The notes: generated from the letters alone by a model not told the origin. 64,000 bases of DNA from Candidatus Bathyarchaeota archaeon (GCA_026014745.1 JAOZHS010000002.1:620001-684000), one strand, 5' to 3'. Counted from the first letter of the stretch, positions 1 through 17,019 are shown. Made by a program: numbers and translations.

Positions 1-2977
1 TTGCCTGTTCAGGACGCCCTGTCTTGATGTAGTAGTTTCCTTTGTTGTACCAAGCGTCTGCGTATTGAGGGTTGATTTCTATCGCTTTATTGTAGTATGC
101 CAAGGCTTCGTCAAAATGGCCCAATTTTATTAGGCTGACGCCTTTGTTGTTTAATGCTGCCGCATTTAGCGGGTCAATTTCCAGAGCCTTATCATGGCAG
201 TATATCGATTCATGAAAGCGACCCAACCGGCGCAGGCTTGTTCCTTTGTTTATCCAAGCGTTTATTTTTTTAGGATCAATTTCCAGAGCCTTATCACAGC
301 ATTGTAGGCCTTCATCAAAGCGCCCTAAACCAGCAAGACTTATCGCTTTATTACTCCAAGCGTCTGTACTTTGCGGGTTGATTTCCAAAACCTTGTCATA
401 GCATTCGATCGCTTCATTGAAACGTGCCAGTTCTTGAAGAGCAACGCCTTTGTCGTTCCAACCTCTTGGATTTTTTGGGTTTATTTCTATGGCTTTGTCG
501 TGACATTTTATGGCTTCATCAAAACGTCCAAGTCTGCCTAGAGCGTTTCCTTTATTAAACCATGGTTCCGGGTAGTTAGCATTCATCTGTAAAGCTTTAT
601 CATAGCATTGTATTGCTTCTTCATAACGACCCACCCTTTCAAGGCTAGCACCCTTGTTGTTCCATTCCCAAAATTCGAACTCCGTTACCAATGGAAGTCC
701 CACTGTTTCGCCCGTTAGTCCTTTAAGAAGCGATTCCAAGTCTACCCTCAACTCCTTAAAGCTTTGATATCTTCTCTGAGGCTCTTTCTCTAAACACCGT
801 TGAACAACTGAGAAAAGGGGCGAGTTAAACCGTGGAACTGGAGCGTGACTGTGTAAACGAGACATTTCATTGTGAAACCGTGTCTGCTCTTCATAAGACT
901 CATCTTTTGGCCAAGTTGTTAAAAAAGGGAGAGCGCCGCCTGCTGCCATCTGGTATAGAACAATTCCAAACGCGTAAACATCGCTCCTTTCGTCACAAAC
1001 CTTTGCATTAATGAAATGCTCGGGTGACATGTATGGAGGCGTACCATAATTACTCTTAATCGAATCTAAACCGCTGGCTAAACCGAAATCGGTTATTTTC
1101 ACTACACTATTTGAAGTAATCATTATATTTTCGGGTTTTATGTCACGATGGGATTTTATTCCTTTTGAGTATGCGAATTCAATGCCATGGCAGAATTGAA
1201 TTGCCCATTTTATGCTCTGGGATAAATCAGGTGGCTGTTGCTTTAGATAGCCAGCTAGTGAATTCAAGCCCATCTCGTTTGGAGTGATGTATTCCATGCC
1301 AATATAGAGGCGTCCGCCCACTTCATCAACAAAGTAGGCACGAACAATGTATGGATGACGTTCTATTTCGGTCCAGGTGTAGGCTTCTTTTCGGAATAGC
1401 TCCCTTGCCTCAGCATCGAAGAGGCACTTTTCGTTGAAGGTTTTGAGGGCATAAACCTCTCTTGTTTCATGTGAGTAAACTAAGTAGACTACGCCGAATC
1501 CGCCGTGCCCCACTTCTCTAATAACTTCGTATTTCTCGCCTATGAAATTGCCTTTTTCACTCGCTACGAATCTGTGTATAGCATCGATTGCTTGATTTGT
1601 TAAACCTATGCCTTGATCTGCTTTCTCATATGCAAGTTGAACTCTAGCGGCGTCAACCTGTCGGCCTAGTGCTTGGTACATGTGCATGAGGTGCATTGGC
1701 GCTTCGTACTGGTTAGGATTAGTTGCGAGCGCCATTTCAAAATAGTGTAATGCATTGTCAACCTTTCCCGTGTAATCAAAAACGCATAATTCTCCGAGCA
1801 TCAAAAAAAGGTAATAGCCTAATGCATTTTGCTTAATTTTGTCCTCGCCCAAGGCGGATATGGCTTGTTGGAGTGTGTTCCAAGCGCCTTGAGGGTCTTT
1901 GACCCTTTGTTTTTGTATTCTTGCTTTCCAGGTGTAGGCGTCAACTAACTGGGGATCCAACTTTATTGCGCTATCTAAATTTTTTAATCCGCTTTCCACA
2001 GCATTCGGATAACGGGTTGGGAAGTCAGAGTCTCGGTAGTCTAGGACCCCGAGTCCCAGATAAGGTAGGGCATAAGATTCGTCTGTGGTAAGGGAGCGGG
2101 TGAACAGTTCTCGTGCTACTTCTTTATTGTTGCTGTAGTACTCGATGAGTCCGAGCAGAGCGATTGCCTTTGAATCTGATTTTCCCTCTCCATCAACATA
2201 GAATTTCAAATCCTCAAATGCCTTCTTTGATTTATCAAAAAATCTCGATCGTGACCTGAAGGCATTGTCAAGTTCTTTGTTGGCATTTGCCAAAATCTGG
2301 TCTGACAAGACTGTATCTGCCGCATTCCGCTCACCTGTTTGAGGCTCAGGGGATTTTTCGTTAGCGACTTCTGCAGCCTGTATGTCAGAGCCTTCATCTA
2401 TTTTGTAACTTGACGGGGTTGTTTTGTCTAGCTTTTTCCCACAGTTTTTGCAGTAATCAAGCGTAATCGGCATCAGTTTCCCGCAGCCGCTACAGTTAAC
2501 TTGACCTTCAGCAGTAGGGGGAGTTTTGATGTTTTGTGTTGTGACCCTTCCTTCAAGTTTCTTTCCGCAATTGCTGCAATATTCAAGTGAGTTGGGCATT
2601 GGTTTACCACAGCAAATGCAAATAACATGATCTTGTGAAAACTTATTTTCAGGTTTAAGTTCACTTATTGTGTTTTGCTGTTTTACGGTGGTAACCGTTG
2701 GTTCTTTTTGGTATTTTTGTTCGACTTTTCCTGCTGCCATTGCTCCAACTTTGGGGTCGAAAGAAACTTTGGATTCCATGACGCCCGTTGGTTTTGGTAT
2801 TTTCTCAAAGTAATCTGCTAGTGCAAGCATACATTTTGGACAAATATTCCAATCGGAGGTATCTTGTGCAACAATGCTGTTCTTCCAACCTTCAAATACG
2901 GTTTCGGCGGGCAGAAAAGAGGGCAACAATCCTAAAGCAAATGGGTTAAAACCATTCTTGAATACTGCAACCCGCAT
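1..2977 (-). CDS. Ser/Thr protein kinase with zinc ribbons and TPR repeats (C-terminus beyond window)
   Basis: The reading frame is open from the left edge and was read directly from the minus strand. N-terminal half: a CPKC pair and two short zinc ribbons (CICCG...CSNCG, CSGCG...CKNCG, about residues 110-185), then TPR-like helices (about 270-430). A complete Hanks-type kinase domain starts near residue 480: glycine loop GHGGFG, lysine in YALK, catalytic HRDIKPEN (about 605) and DFG. From about residue 750 onward there are regular TPR repeats of the form 'AIxCxDKALEINPxxxxAWxNKG', still running at the edge. No membrane segment is seen, so it is probably a cytosolic kinase using TPRs for partner binding. 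The first ATG is at 2977, but homologous-looking sequence continues in frame upstream (see findings). It heads a minus-strand neighbourhood with an FHA protein, a natural phosphothreonine reader. Confidence 0.9.
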   Translation of the reverse strand, partial: MRVAVFKNGFNPFALGLLPSFLPAETVFEGWKNSIVAQDTSDWNICPKCMLALADYFEKIPKPTGVMESKVSFDPKVGAMAAGKVEQKYQKEPTVTTVKQQNTISELKPENKFSQDHVICICCGKPMPNSLEYCSNCGKKLEGRVTTQNIKTPPTAEGQVNCSGCGKLMPITLDYCKNCGKKLDKTTPSSYKIDEGSDIQAAEVANEKSPEPQTGERNAADTVLSDQILANANKELDNAFRSRSRFFDKSKKAFEDLKFYVDGEGKSDSKAIALLGLIEYYSNNKEVARELFTRSLTTDESYALPYLGLGVLDYRDSDFPTRYPNAVESGLKNLDSAIKLDPQLVDAYTWKARIQKQRVKDPQGAWNTLQQAISALGEDKIKQNALGYYLFLMLGELCVFDYTGKVDNALHYFEMALATNPNQYEAPMHLMHMYQALGRQVDAARVQLAYEKADQGIGLTNQAIDAIHRFVASEKGNFIGEKYEVIREVGHGGFGVVYLVYSHETREVYALKTFNEKCLFDAEARELFRKEAYTWTEIERHPYIVRAYFVDEVGGRLYIGMEYITPNEMGLNSLAGYLKQQPPDLSQSIKWAIQFCHGIEFAYSKGIKSHRDIKPENIMITSNSVVKITDFGLASGLDSIKSNYGTPPYMSPEHFINAKVCDERSDVYAFGIVLYQMAAGGALPFLTTWPKDESYEEQTRFHNEMSRLHSHAPVPRFNSPLFSVVQRCLEKEPQRRYQSFKELRVDLESLLKGLTGETVGLPLVTEFEFWEWNNKGASLERVGRYEEAIQCYDKALQMNANYPEPWFNKGNALGRLGRFDEAIKCHDKAIEINPKNPRGWNDKGVALQELARFNEAIECYDKVLEINPQSTDAWSNKAISLAGLGRFDEGLQCCDKALEIDPKKINAWINKGTSLRRLGRFHESIYCHDKALEIDPLNAAALNNKGVSLIKLGHFDEALAYYNKAIEINPQYADAWYNKGNYYIKTGRPEQA

Positions 2978-3191
2978 GTCCTCTGAACTAACTAATACTC
3001 CGGTTCCCGGAGAACCACAGATATCACAAACGACTATAGTCAGTCACTCTTCTAAAAATAATCTCAATTCAATTATTGGTTTGGGATAGATTTACGCATT
3101 TCTATTCAACAATAAGTGTACTCTTTTAGGGAGATAACGAATCGATTGTTCTTTGTTTGATTAAGGAGTATCTTTAAAAAGAATGGGTGAG

Positions 3192-3644
3192 TTATACGGC
3201 GAATTGTTTTCTAATCAGTAGAAGGGAGTTCATGGTTGTGTTCGATACTTTTTGCAGCATATCCCTGAATTCATCATAGTCGAGGTTTTCAACGGGTCTT
3301 CTTAAGACGAGGTAGATTGTGTCGTGTTTTTCACTAAGTGCAAAGTGGGCAACGTCAGTTGAAAGGTAGTTCCATGCTAATAGTTGTCGGAAGAATACGA
3401 CAGGGTTTTCTTTTGGAACTTTTACTACTGGAGAGGAAAAAACAACGTCAGGTTTGGCTTGATTTTGTAGCTGCATTACCCCAACCTCGGTTGTTATGGA
3501 TGAGTATGTTATTAGTGTGTCAGCTAAAAAAGAGCCGCCGCTTGACGAGTCAGTAAGGGGGTTTTTGTTTCCGGTAAATTTATGCAGGTATTCGTTGATT
3601 TTATCAACCGCTTTTTTAAAATCACGAGGGGGCGCAAAAGTCAT
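3192..3644 (-). CDS. YbjN / type III secretion chaperone-like protein
   Basis: A 150-residue soluble protein with a clear Shine-Dalgarno site (GAGGG, 7 bases before the ATG). The alternating beta-rich and helical pattern, with a hydrophobic strand followed by 'IYLVLRRPVENLDYDEF' and a C-terminal helix, resembles the YbjN/Tir-chaperone fold; this assignment is from pattern memory and has no diagnostic catalytic motif. Such small proteins usually act as chaperones or adaptors. It lies between the kinase and a small membrane protein, all on the minus strand, so it may be part of the kinase/FHA signalling group. No enzymatic role can be proposed. Confidence 0.6.
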   Translation of the reverse strand: MTFAPPRDFKKAVDKINEYLHKFTGNKNPLTDSSSGGSFLADTLITYSSITTEVGVMQLQNQAKPDVVFSSPVVKVPKENPVVFFRQLLAWNYLSTDVAHFALSEKHDTIYLVLRRPVENLDYDEFRDMLQKVSNTTMNSLLLIRKQFAV

Positions 3645-3727
3645 GTTTCAACCCTCATTTTTTTAGAGTTTAATTTGTTATTAATACCTTATGTTTTTGT
3701 AACTAACCATTATTTGCTTAAAAACTG

Positions 3728-4015
3728 TTAAGTAATTATCAGCCCGACCACTGCTACAAGTGAGCAGGTGAGTCCTGCAAGGAAAGTTGAAGCAGAAATG
3801 GTCCACAGTTTTCTTTTTTCTGGATAAATTGTATAAAAGAATATGAAGAAGGCGCTTAAAACAAACATCATCGCATTCAACGAAAGGACAAATCTTATGA
3901 GAAAAAGCGCGTCTTTTCCAATAATTTGTAGAGCCGCAAGGCTTAATCCTGCCAAAGTTCCTGGATAACAAGCGTTAATGATTGGCTTTATGAGTCTGTC
4001 CTCAACATCTCTCAT
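3728..4015 (-). CDS. small membrane protein, unknown function
   Basis: A 95-residue protein starting at an ATG (MRDVEDRLIKP). Three hydrophobic stretches are visible, roughly residues 18-32, 39-62 and 72-94, separated by short charged loops including a YPEKRK turn, suggesting a three-helix integral membrane protein with a short cytoplasmic N-terminus. I do not recognise a family. It lies between the YbjN-like gene and the FHA gene in the same orientation, which makes a functional link with the kinase module plausible but unproven. Confidence 0.6.
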   Translation of the reverse strand: MRDVEDRLIKPIINACYPGTLAGLSLAALQIIGKDALFLIRFVLSLNAMMFVLSAFFIFFYTIYPEKRKLWTISASTFLAGLTCSLVAVVGLIIT

Positions 4016-4079
4016 AATCAGCCCTATAAGCAGTATCTTTTAGTTGTTTAAGTAGTTACCGTTAGCAGTTGCGTTGACT

Positions 4080-4478
4080 TTAGCCTCGTAGCCAATCTTT
4101 AAGTCCGAGTTTTTTAGCAAAAAACCTTAGCCGAGTTTCTCCACCGATAAGGATAATATCGCCGTGCTTCATTTTCACTCTGTCATTCTTAAACCATTTA
4201 GTACTTATTGTTGTACCGTTTGTGCTGTTGAGGTCTTCGTAGTAGTAGGCTCCTTCGGATTTGTCAAAGAGTATTTGCGCGTGAAACCTTGATATCTTTT
4301 GATCGTAAAGTAAACATATGTCATTATCGGGGTTTCTTCCGATAGTGAGTCGAGGCTTGTCAATCAAAAACTCTTTGCCCTTGTCCGGTCCGTTTTCAAT
4401 GACTATCTTTGCAGGCTCTACTTCTAAGTTGTAGGCACGGGTCGTTGATATTTTACCATCGGCATTATTGGTGCTCAT
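4080..4478 (-). CDS. FHA domain protein
   Basis: A forkhead-associated domain protein of about 132 residues. The FHA signature is complete: 'LTIGRNPDNDI' (the GR loop), 'ISRFHAQI' (SxxH) and 'DLNSTNGT' (NxxxT-type loop), spread over the middle of the chain. FHA domains bind phosphothreonine peptides, so with the Ser/Thr kinase a kilobase downstream it forms a likely writer/reader pair. About 20 residues before the domain contain several Thr residues that could be kinase targets, as in bacterial FHA substrates (inference). I chose the ATG at 4478; a TTG three codons upstream (4487) is the alternative. Confidence 0.87.
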   Translation of the reverse strand: MSTNNADGKISTTRAYNLEVEPAKIVIENGPDKGKEFLIDKPRLTIGRNPDNDICLLYDQKISRFHAQILFDKSEGAYYYEDLNSTNGTTISTKWFKNDRVKMKHGDIILIGGETRLRFFAKKLGLKDWLRG

Positions 4479-4499
4479 AACGACCAAAAATATTCATTC

Positions 4500-4673
4500 T
4501 CATATCGATATTAAAGTTGCTATTGAGGAATTTTCGATTAGTTCCAGTTGCCATCCAAGTTTAGGAAAGAAAAAGAGTGCCTGCGGGTCCACTTTGCAAA
4601 GAGTACAAATTCCTCTGTCCACCAGAATAACACGGATACATTTTGCGGATACTTTCTTTGCGTTCAAGGTCAC
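4500..4673 (-). CDS. possible 57-aa CxxC protein upstream of the FHA gene
   Basis: A GTG-initiated frame of 57 codons on the minus strand, ending about 20 bases before the FHA gene start in the same orientation. It contains a CTLC pair and a short hydrophobic strand. A clear Shine-Dalgarno site is missing and no homology is recognised, so this may be a chance frame. It is listed because it fills most of an otherwise empty 300-bp gap. The competing plus-strand frame across 4468-4749 has an unconvincing amino-acid composition. Confidence 0.25.
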   Translation of the reverse strand: MTLNAKKVSAKCIRVILVDRGICTLCKVDPQALFFFPKLGWQLELIENSSIATLISI

Positions 4674-13199: not shown

Positions 13200-14045
13200 T
13201 TACGGTGACCATAAGGTTTCGGTTGTATGCCGTACTTTTTCCAGAATCGACGCCACAGCTTCAGGGGATAACCCCAGTTTTCGTTCGAGGTAGCGGCTAT
13301 CTTGCTGGAGCAACTGTGGAATAAGCACAATACCCATCTCGACTAGCCGCAGCCGCACCGAGGGGTTTAAGCCTCGCAGACAACTCAAAGGATACAACCT
13401 GTGCCGTTCCACCACGTCACGTAGCCCCCAACCTTCCGGAGACGCCCAGCCCACTTGCAAAATCCCGCGGCAACCACCATAGTTGATGGCATGTTCAGAG
13501 TATCGGGTGTTAGTAACCAACAGGGCACGGTCAATTTTGACTGATGTTACGCCTTCGCGGTAGCCGTCCGTTACGTCTTCAAGTATTGCACGGGCTATGC
13601 GGCTCTCATCCAATCCTGTAAGAGCATGGTATTCAGCGTGATGTTTTGCCTCCACAAAATAGGTAACGCCGCCTTTAGATGCGATGGCGTCGACTTCATG
13701 TTCCCCGCACAAACCCCGTAGAATCGCGTTGGGTTGAACTTGAAAACCGCTGTAAGAAAGGAGCACACGCACAAAAGCCTCGAATTCGGGTTTAGACTCC
13801 ATGAGGCTTATGCCACGTTTTAGGTCAAAGAGATGTCTCACTGCAGGTTTAGATTTACGCATGAGAATAAAGATGAGTTGGAGGATTCTTCTGGTAGGCA
13901 TACCCTCGTAGACGTTGCCCGCTATTTTTTCTGCGACTTGAGCAGCGACTTCGGGGGTGGCGCCTAATCGGAGGCAGGTCTGGATGACTTTTGCTTTATC
14001 GAAGGGCTGTTTTGTGCCATCTGCTTTAGTTACAAAAAATACCAA
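13200..14045 (-). CDS. ATP-cone domain fused to Mrr-like restriction endonuclease-fold nuclease
   Basis: 281 residues. Residues 1-85 match an ATP-cone (begins 'VTKADGTKQPFDKAKVI', ends in 'MPTRRILQLIF'), the nucleotide-sensing module of ribonucleotide reductases and NrdR. Residues about 95-215 form a PD-(D/E)xK nuclease core: 'EHEVDAIAS' supplies Asp, 'YFVEAKHH' supplies the ExK pair, preceded by 'FEAFVRVLLSYSGFQV', the usual Mrr_cat first helix. The last about 60 residues resemble helix-hairpin-helix DNA-binding elements ('RGLNPSVRLRLVEMGI'). A DNA nuclease gated by nucleotide level is inferred; the target is unknown. It may belong to repair rather than restriction since no methylase is nearby. 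It is separated from clpB by a palindromic non-coding locus. Confidence 0.82.
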   Translation of the reverse strand: MVFFVTKADGTKQPFDKAKVIQTCLRLGATPEVAAQVAEKIAGNVYEGMPTRRILQLIFILMRKSKPAVRHLFDLKRGISLMESKPEFEAFVRVLLSYSGFQVQPNAILRGLCGEHEVDAIASKGGVTYFVEAKHHAEYHALTGLDESRIARAILEDVTDGYREGVTSVKIDRALLVTNTRYSEHAINYGGCRGILQVGWASPEGWGLRDVVERHRLYPLSCLRGLNPSVRLRLVEMGIVLIPQLLQQDSRYLERKLGLSPEAVASILEKVRHTTETLWSP

Positions 14046-14130
14046 GTGCGCTCCATCCTCATAGAAGATTGACTGGATAACGTTTTAATTTTGTGGGTTA
14101 CCGTCATTGTAGTTCATTTTTTTGTTTTTT

Positions 14131-14418
14131 CTCTTTGTGTGGGTTTGGTGCTTTACGGGATGCCACAGGTTGGTTGTTGGTTTGGGTTGTTTTTTGGGTT
14201 TGCTTTGTGTTTTGGGGTCTGTTTGGGTGTGGTATAACTGGATTTACCACACGTTCAACATAGGTCTATGTTGAAGCCGTCGCCATGTGCGCGTGGCGAC
14301 ATGTAGAAACTGGTTTTCTTCCCACAAGAACCAACACCCAAACACAACGCGCACCAAACAATTTTTTATCTCGTTCAAAAAAAGGTGCAAAAAAGAAAAA
14401 AAGGCACACTACAAAGAG
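14131..14418. other. nested palindromic, strand-asymmetric non-coding locus
   Basis: The about 380-bp gap between clpB and the nuclease gene has a G/T-rich left arm and an A/C-rich right arm. Nested complementary segments are visible: GTTTGGTGC (14143-14151) with GCACCAAAC (14351-14359); TGTTTGGGTGT (14220-14230) with ACACCCAAACA (14334-14344); CTCTTTG at the far left with CAAAGAG at the far right. In the centre sit three hairpins: 14227-14252 (8-bp stem), 14254-14275 (perfect 22-bp palindrome, TTCAACATAG arm) and 14279-14300 (7-bp stem). The first hairpin shares bases with the inner stem, so both cannot form at once. No open frame fits. It could be a structured RNA, a degraded MITE-like element or a complex terminator for clpB. 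Confidence 0.65.
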
Positions 14419-14424
14419 AAGAGA

Positions 14425-17019
14425 TTACGGTTTATTCTTAAACACTAACCCACCGTTCTTCTCATCCACCACAATCACCGACGCCTTATCCACTTTCTCC
14501 GCCAAAATAATCTTAGACAACTCATTGAGCACATTCTTTTGGATAACCCGTTTTATAGGTCTGGCGCCGAATTGAGGGTCAAACCCTACTTTAGCAATGT
14601 AATCAATGGCTTTCTTGGTGACTTCAACATTAACGCCGTTTTTCTCCAGCATCTTCTGCACTGCTTTGAGTTGGTTTTCCACAATTTTTCGCACTTCCTC
14701 TTCAGTGAGAGGCTGGAACATGATAATTTCGTCAACACGGTTGAGGAATTCGGGTTTAATGGTGCGTTTGACGAGGTTGAAGACTTCTTCTTTTGTGTGG
14801 TTCCAGATTTCTTCGCGGTTGTCGGCAGTTACTTTTTCGAGGTTTTCTTGGATGATGTGGGAGCCGATGTTGGAGGTCATGATGATTATAGTGTTCTTGA
14901 AATCCACTGTGCGTCCCTTGTTGTCTGTTAATCGTCCGTCGTCCAATACTTGTAGGAGTATGTTGAAGACATCAGGGTGTGCTTTCTCGATTTCATCAAG
15001 GAGCACAACAGAGTAGGGTTTTCTGCGCACAGCCTCGGTTAACTGTCCGCTTTCCTCATACCCAACGTAGCCGGGGGGAGCACCGACCAATCTGGAAACT
15101 GTATGGCGTTCCTGATACTCCGACATGTCGATTCGGACCATGTTGTTCTCGTTGTTGAAGAGGAAGTCTGCAAGCGCCTTTGCCAATTCAGTTTTGCCAA
15201 CGCCTGTTGTGCCTAAGAAGATGAAGGAGCCGATGGGACGTTTGGGGTCTTGCAGTCCAGCTCGGCTGCGGCGGATGGCATCAGAGACGGCGCGGATAGC
15301 GTCTTCTTGCCCGATGACGCGTATGTGAAGTTCAGTTTCGAGGTTAAGCAGCTTTTGCTTCTCGCTCTGCAGCATACGGCTAACGGGTATGCCTGTCCAG
15401 TGCGAAACTACCTCTGCGATTTCCTCTGCATCCACTTCCTCATTTATTAGGGGTGAGTCTTTTTGGATTTCCGAGAGTTTTGCTTTTAGGGTTTCGATGG
15501 CCTTGGTTGCTTCGGGGATTCTGCCATAACGAATTTCCGCCACTTTACCAAGGTCGCCGCGGCGGTTGGCATCTTCTTCCGTGAATTTTAGCTGTTCAAT
15601 TTCATTCTTTTTGTTCTGGATTTGCTCCACAATGTCTTTTTCGGCTTGCCATTTGGCCTTTAGTTTGTTACGTTGTTCACTTAGGTTGGCGATTTCTTCG
15701 TTTAGCACTTTGAGTTTGGCTTCGTCTTTTTCTCGTTTTATGGCTTCACGTTCAATTTCTAGCTGACGGATTTTGCGTTCTATTGTTTCAAGTTCTTCGG
15801 GGGCAGAGTTGATTTCTAAGCGCAACTTCGAGGCGGCTTCATCTATGAGGTCTATGGCTTTGTCAGGTAGGAAACGGTCAGAAATGTAGCGCTGAGATAA
15901 CTCAACAGCAGCAATTATCGCTTCATCCTTTATTCTGACATGGTGAAATACCTCGTAACGTTCTTTTAAGCCGCGAAGAATGCTAATCGCGTCTAGGGTA
16001 TCAGGTTCATTAACCATTACTGGCTGGAAACGACGTTCGAGGGCTTTGTCTTTTTCAAAGTACTTCTGGTATTCCTTAAGCGTGGTTGCACCGATAACCC
16101 GCAGGTCACCTCGGGCTAAGGCAGGTTTTAGAATGTTTGCGGCATCCATAGCGCCCTCGCTTGCGCCTGCCCCGACCAGCGTGTGAATTTCGTCAATAAA
16201 CATGACGATTTCGCCCTCAGATGAGATGACTTCTTTTATGACGCTTTTTAGGCGTTCTTCGAATTCGCCCTTGTATTTAGCGCCCGCTATTAGGGCGCCC
16301 ATGTCGAGGGAGTAGAGTTTTTTGGATTTTAGGTTCTCGGGTACGTCACCGTTTACGATGCGGTGGGCTATGCCTTCGGCTATGGCGGTTTTGCCGACGC
16401 CTGGTTCACCGATAAGAATAGGGTTGTTTTTTGTTCGCCTCGATAGGATTTGGAGGACGCGGCGGATTTCTTCGTCTCGTCCAATGACGGGGTCAAGTTT
16501 TCCAGTTCTTGCCCGCTCATTTAAGTTGGTTGCAAAACGGTTCAGCGCGTTGTAGGTTTCATCTGTTGTTTGTGAATTCACAGTTGATCCCTTCCTCAAT
16601 TGCTTAATTGCCTCTTTTAGTTCTTTTTCTGTAACTCCACTACTTTGAAGTAGCCTCGAAGCCGAATCGCCCGAGGATAGAATTGCTAGTAGGAGCTGTT
16701 CGAGGGAGACAAATTTGTCTTGGCTCTCAGCAGCTAACTCCTGAGCTTTTCGAAGAACCTTGTTAGAGTTAGTTGATAGGTAGTGTTCTCCGCCGGTGAC
16801 TTTTGGCAGAGAATCAATCAGCCGCTCAAGCGAGCCCAAAAAGGCGTCCATGTTGATGTTGAAGTGTTTTAGCAGATAAGGAATCACATTGTCGTCAACG
16901 GTTAGCAGGGCTTTTAGCAGATGTGCTGGTTCGATGGCTTGGTTTTGCTTGGCAGATGCTATTTCTAAGGCTTTTTGGAGTGCCTCTTGTGATTTAACGG
17001 TAAAATTGTCAAAGCTCAT
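14425..17019 (-). CDS. clpB: ATP-dependent disaggregase ClpB
   Basis: 864 residues, the normal ClpB length. Order: Clp-N double repeat (1-145, starting '[16 protein letters not shown]'), AAA+ module 1 with Walker A GEPGVGKT (about 205) and Walker B '[10 protein letters not shown]', a long coiled-coil M-domain (about 400-530, rich in '[16 protein letters not shown]'-type heptads), AAA+ module 2 with GTTGVGKT (about 605), pore loop GYVG, '[11 protein letters not shown]', and a D2-small domain. It threads aggregated proteins through its pore, normally with DnaK. ClpB is mainly bacterial and patchy in archaea, so acquisition from bacteria is likely (inference). No DnaK, GrpE or small Hsp lies within the window. 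Expression probably ends in the palindromic locus downstream. Confidence 0.96.

Follow-up and report, generated by a model that had tools for sequence, protein, structure and literature searches.

Background

Among the described systems closest to the present locus is that of the Actinobacteria composed of PknG, OdhI or GarA, GlnX and GlnH. PknG, a soluble kinase, has C-terminal TPRs and, at its N-terminus, a metal-binding rubredoxin domain (absent in corynebacteria); its substrates, OdhI and GarA, are recruited through binding of the FHA domain to autophosphorylated threonines in the N-terminal extension of the kinase (PMC8546545). The TPR domain has been proposed to contact GlnX, a membrane protein with four helices and two large periplasmic domains (PMC9769921). 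In Sulfolobus, ArnC (two TPRs and a kinase domain) phosphorylates two proteins, ArnA with an FHA domain and ArnB with a vWA domain; likewise, ST0829 phosphorylates the FHA protein ST1565 (PMC5300886, PMC6509490). In bacteria, genes for kinases, phosphatases and FHA proteins have long been known to cluster (PMC1262709).

The locus described here lies at the edge of a 64,000-nucleotide stretch of DNA from a Candidatus Bathyarchaeota archaeon, the whole of which is referred to as the window. On balance, we read it as an accessory, probably acquired phospho-signalling pair, in which a kinase of the Hanks type with zinc ribbons and TPRs is the writer and an OdhI/GarA-like FHA protein the reader. 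A genome whose single PknB-type kinase neighbours its single FHA protein offers a minimal writer-reader pair in which cause and effect would be directly testable. To our knowledge, the substrates of archaeal kinases are little known outside the Sulfolobales.

Gene content and organization

The four genes that the first-pass annotation had placed in a row on one strand were recovered as ORFs in that arrangement, all on the minus strand and in the transcription order FHA protein, three-helix membrane protein, CesT/YbjN-like protein and kinase (Table 1). Since the gaps between them measure 64, 83 and 148 bp, a single operon is not evident, and intergenic distances of this size (64–148 bp) are no proof of co-transcription. 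The kinase ORF overruns the window edge by 107 bp, to G000:C2:619894, and has a total of 1,049 codons counted from the upstream stop.

Table 1. Features of the locus and its surroundings (window positions unless another contig or locus is named)
Feature	Location	Strand	Basis or remark
Hanks-type kinase, in-window part	1..3043	-	Pfam Pkinase, TPR, double zinc ribbon
CesT/YbjN-superfamily protein, 150 aa	3192..3644	-	Pfam CesT; PDB 2plg
Small membrane protein, 95 aa	3728..4015	-	three hydrophobic stretches
Single-FHA protein, 132 aa from ATG 4478 (or start TTG 4487)	4080..4478	-	Pfam FHA; PDB relatives
HEAT-repeat gene	L003:14001-14708, outside window	- (same as kinase)	185 bp downstream of kinase
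Variable site	G000:C2, adenosine-specific-kinase gene (L003:12917) to ATP-cone/ClpB genes (window 13200-17019)		flank synteny

The kinase

The kinase possesses the GHGGFG glycine loop, the catalytic lysine within ALK, and the HRD, DFG and SPE motifs of a Hanks-type (PknB-like) Ser/Thr kinase. Its kinase domain is of the PknB type, with StkP/PknB as the top PDB matches. Pfam matches to Pkinase (1.9e-42), the double zinc ribbon DZR (6.5e-8) and many TPR repeats (4.7e-70) agree with its previous description as a Hanks-type kinase with zinc ribbons and TPRs. The TPRs flank the kinase domain on both its N-terminal and C-terminal sides, and six CxxC motifs form three zinc-ribbon-like pairs (CDIC/CPKC, CICC/CSNC and CSGC/CKNC). 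The N-terminal zinc part has no relatives in plasmids, and against the PDB it gave generic TPR matches only. Threonine is enriched in the N-terminal linker region, where 14 of the 48 threonines fall within 168 of the 1,049 residues (p = 0.014, uncorrected).

The first in-frame ATG is at position 2977, and the frame is open upstream until a TGA at 3044-3046, with no ATG, GTG or TTG in that frame in the intervening stretch (window 2978-3046). Since CDIC, the first CxxC of the protein, which completes a zinc-ribbon pair, lies upstream of this ATG, translation probably starts between 2980 and 3043 at a codon other than ATG (CTG 3043 or nearby); alternatively, there is a sequence error in the start region.

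The FHA protein

The FHA domain (Pfam, 1.2e-17) retains the GR, SRxH (SxxH) and NG motifs of the phosphothreonine site (PMC1262709), and the proposal that this protein is a phosphothreonine reader is upheld as a prediction by the domain match and its complete motifs. Its best relatives in the PDB are OdhI (6.7e-14) and GarA (2.8e-11), followed by ArnA (1.5e-8), and no close relative was found within the family. The N-terminus was earlier called threonine-rich, which is only modestly so, there being three threonines in the first 20 residues. It does carry a TTRAY motif, which is comparable to the TT motif carried by OdhI, and by analogy the FHA protein is probably also a substrate of the kinase through this motif. 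Between TTRAY and the first strand of the FHA domain the linker is about 7–8 residues long, the structure model being poor (pLDDT 56, a low confidence for which it was left out as evidence); such a linker looks short, and may be too short, for an intramolecular switch of the OdhI type.

These features suggest a scheme in which the soluble kinase would write phosphothreonine and the neighbouring small FHA protein would read it. By analogy with PknG and OdhI/GarA, autophosphorylated threonines in the threonine-containing linkers of the kinase would be the docking site for the FHA protein, which, once docked, would itself be phosphorylated and then switch its bound target. Signal inputs or targets may bind to the TPRs of the kinase, the three-helix protein may be a membrane anchor or an input, and the CesT-like protein may act as a peptide-binding adaptor or chaperone. 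We infer the kinase activity, the phospho-docking and the roles of the latter two proteins.

Association of the kinase with the FHA protein

The kinase is the sole PknB-type kinase, and the FHA protein the sole FHA domain, of a 2.7 Mb genome, and the two genes are 1,037 bp apart; the rough chance of their lying on the same strand at this distance is about 4e-4. No PP2C phosphatase was found in the window genome. Profile searches for FHA and Pkinase covered 32 genomes of the genus and revealed FHA domains in five. Four genomes have strong PknB-type kinases, scoring over 100 bits. All remaining Pkinase matches in the genus were weaker (66 bits or less), and their length and position suggest kinases of the Bud32, RIO or UbiB type, which are common in archaea. 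FHA domains occur in all four kinase-bearing genomes, as compared with one of the remaining 28 (Fisher p = 1.4e-4, or p = 0.002 when the weaker kinases of G012 and G014, both genomes without FHA, are counted), though these p-values are guides only, the genomes being related and the counts ignoring shared ancestry.

Kinase and FHA genes are, moreover, physically linked in every kinase-bearing genome of the genus (the window genome, G024, G027 and G031). In G024 and G027 an FHA protein stands in a row with two kinase-FHA fusions; in G031 about 10 kb separate an FHA-kinase from a TPR/WD40 kinase, and there is a second FHA gene. Because the only PknB-type kinase and the only FHA protein lie close together, and because co-occurrence and linkage hold in four of the four genomes, the predicted writer-reader pairing is well supported, and with it that half of the first-pass proposal.

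Several further clusters were encountered in these searches. The zinc-ribbon FHA protein and two kinase-FHA fusions of G027 (L079:3794-10664) and of G024 (L043:1659-4485) form Arn-like clusters, that of G027 being adjoined by vWA and PP2C genes. Two congeners without FHA (G012:C18 and G014:C122) each have a divergent Pkinase match (60–66 bits) with a PP2C gene at a distance of about 2 kb. In G058 (L042:9361-17077) the neighbours of ESCRT-III-like and Vps4-like genes include a zinc-ribbon FHA protein and a kinase that bears Ig-like/CARDB-like repeats; this locus resembles the kinase-linked archaeal ESCRT loci for which kinases with Ig-like repeats have been described (PMC11188069).

The CesT-like and membrane proteins

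The 150-residue protein had been labelled YbjN-like. It does belong to the CesT/YbjN superfamily, with a match to PDB entry 2plg (1.8e-4), but the YbjN profile itself (PF10722) gave E 0.025 and 15.3 bits against a cut-off of 22 bits, while the CesT profile (PF05932) matched at 2.9e-9 and 37.5 bits against a 22-bit gathering cut-off; CesT-like is therefore the better name. CesT and YbjN proteins share a class I type III chaperone-like fold. The alignment-free model of the present protein (pLDDT 48) did not confirm this fold, and a Foldseek search with it, which ranked the type III chaperone ExsC first and also listed CesT and SigE, of the same kind, gave E-values of 0.17 or worse amid many kinases and was discarded. 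No secretion-system genes were seen beside the CesT-like gene. Some CesT/YbjN-like proteins bind partners outside secretion, as DR1245 does with DdrB (PMC3575483).

No other carrier of the CesT-like protein was found in 91 genomes of the family or in 398 of the phylum (397 besides its own). A CesT profile search over 300 genomes matched in the window genome only, and genome contigs, plasmids and viral contigs yielded no relatives. The membrane protein, the three hydrophobic stretches of which bear out its earlier description as three-helical, has no confident Pfam or NCBIfam family and no relative in the 31 congeners (32 genomes of the genus including its own).

Comparison with known systems

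The succession of zinc-binding, kinase and TPR segments in the window kinase is that of PknG, and the set likewise includes a small single-FHA protein and a membrane protein gene near the kinase. It departs from PknG in that the kinase is PknB-type and has extra TPRs before the kinase domain, from OdhI in that the FHA protein lacks an N-terminal arm of OdhI length, and from GlnX in that the membrane protein has 95 residues and three helices; no GlnH was seen at the locus, and the CesT-like protein is an addition. The kinase scored E 0.38 and 11.2 bits against the PknG rubredoxin model (PF16919; cut-off 28.5 bits), and the FHA protein 52.3 bits against the OdhI/GarA equivalog (NCBIfam NF041660; cut-off 200 bits). 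We propose that the set operates in the manner of PknG and OdhI, but the failure of these two models places it outside the PknG-OdhI/GarA system. An archaeal counterpart of that system in which a bacterial-type kinase and an FHA protein are joined by an adaptor of the CesT fold and a small anchor in the membrane is, in our estimation, quite unlikely; this combination was present in no other genome searched and was not described in the literature searched.

With the Arn system the locus shares an archaeal Ser/Thr TPR-kinase for which, in Sulfolobus, phosphorylation of an FHA protein is reported. In contrast, ArnA has its own zinc finger and a vWA partner, and ArnC only two TPRs, situated before the kinase domain; a CesT-like or small membrane gene is not mentioned in the available portions of the reports (PMC5300886, PMC6509490). 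The window FHA protein has no zinc finger, and no vWA gene was present among the neighbours scanned. The set had initially been thought unusual for an archaeon. As regards the kinase-FHA pairing it is not, because archaeal TPR-kinase/FHA pairs are already known (PMC5300886). A CesT-like protein beside a kinase-FHA pair was not found in the literature searched.

Genomic context and origin

In a 20-kb DNA comparison no congener matched from about L078:3906 to 15736 among the matches listed, the one listed exception within this stretch being a second partial copy of a surface-protein gene elsewhere in the same genome. The flanks of the block are syntenic in congeners; Mrp/adenosine-specific-kinase genes make up one of them and ATP-cone/ClpB genes the second. 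The distance between them is about 14.3 kb in the window genome, 1.9 kb in G025, 4.4 kb in G029 and 30 kb in G031, and the latter three carry unrelated genes, different in each. Since different cargo lies between the same flanks in all four genomes, this is a variable site of the genus, and the block an accessory insert within it. The GC3 of its five genes (the four described and the HEAT-repeat gene) is 0.37–0.44 versus a regional mean of 0.50.

An accessory location would suit an anti-phage or conflict kinase system, and the kinase domain does match PADLOC mad6 (9e-59) and PD-T4-6. These matches span only the generic kinase domain, however, and no defence model gave a match to the FHA, CesT-like or membrane protein; because the kinase domain alone matches, this reading was rejected as very improbable.

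The first-pass annotation had proposed a four-part signalling system, to be judged by conservation of gene order in related genomes. That comparison was run, and the order was found nowhere else, with no second instance in any collection searched; as the order is not conserved and the CesT-like and membrane genes are in no other phylum or genus genome, respectively, of those searched, the proposal fails by its own measure. Elsewhere in the genus, kinase-FHA clusters are accompanied by different genes, none of them CesT-like. It is possible, though less likely than not, that only the kinase and the FHA protein belong together and that the other two genes are passengers of a hypervariable site, the varied cargo of G025, G029 and G031 and the absence of CesT-like genes from the other clusters pointing this way, together with the want of relatives of either gene by which an association could be tested. 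Against this, both genes are located between the kinase and FHA genes and share their strand; the gaps are short, and GC3 is similarly low.

A private system of four or five parts (kinase, CesT-like adaptor, membrane anchor, FHA protein and perhaps the HEAT protein) seems rather unlikely. It would account for the uninterrupted same-strand run of five genes, their shared low GC3 and their joint absence from congeners at the DNA level among the matches listed, and the DR1245-DdrB pair offers a precedent for partner binding outside secretion (PMC3575483); yet no second example exists in any collection searched. That the set is missing elsewhere is no disproof of a private module, the support for which is adjacency and shared base composition, nothing more. 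Were the CesT-like protein a partner, a type III chaperone-like fold would be tied to archaeal phospho-signalling, but as partners of the pair both it and the membrane protein are speculative. The locus is best described as a lineage-specific and probably acquired kinase-FHA pair with two unproven neighbours.

The nearest match of the kinase domain, at about 51% identity, is the kinase domain of a Bacteroidetes bin (L046, WAS_Bin_9). In the kinase tree the closest branch to the window kinase, as its sister, is the L046 TPR-kinase (100/99), the G031 kinase branching next, less surely (92/80). The nearest relative being from a Bacteroidetes bin, a transfer between domains, in one direction or the other, is suggested as the likely reason.

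Clusters with an FHA-kinase, a TPR or WD40 kinase and ClpB are common to G031 (L039 and L040; G031:C1:44001-80000) and the Bacteroidetes bin (L046:5495-14368), with PP2C as an extra in the latter and two DnaK/GrpE pairs and a CDC48-like ATPase in the former. Their FHA-kinases are sisters in the tree (99/95). Although related to the present locus through the kinase, these clusters differ from it in having fused FHA-kinases with ClpB, PP2C or DnaK/GrpE, and in the absence of a CesT-like gene. Such kinase/FHA/ClpB clusters, in the bin and in this archaeal genus, merit study. Elsewhere in the window, an intergenic repeat of about 230 bp (14110-14380), in which the only repeats are short inverted ones, recurs at least six more times in the genome, at 79–88% identity.
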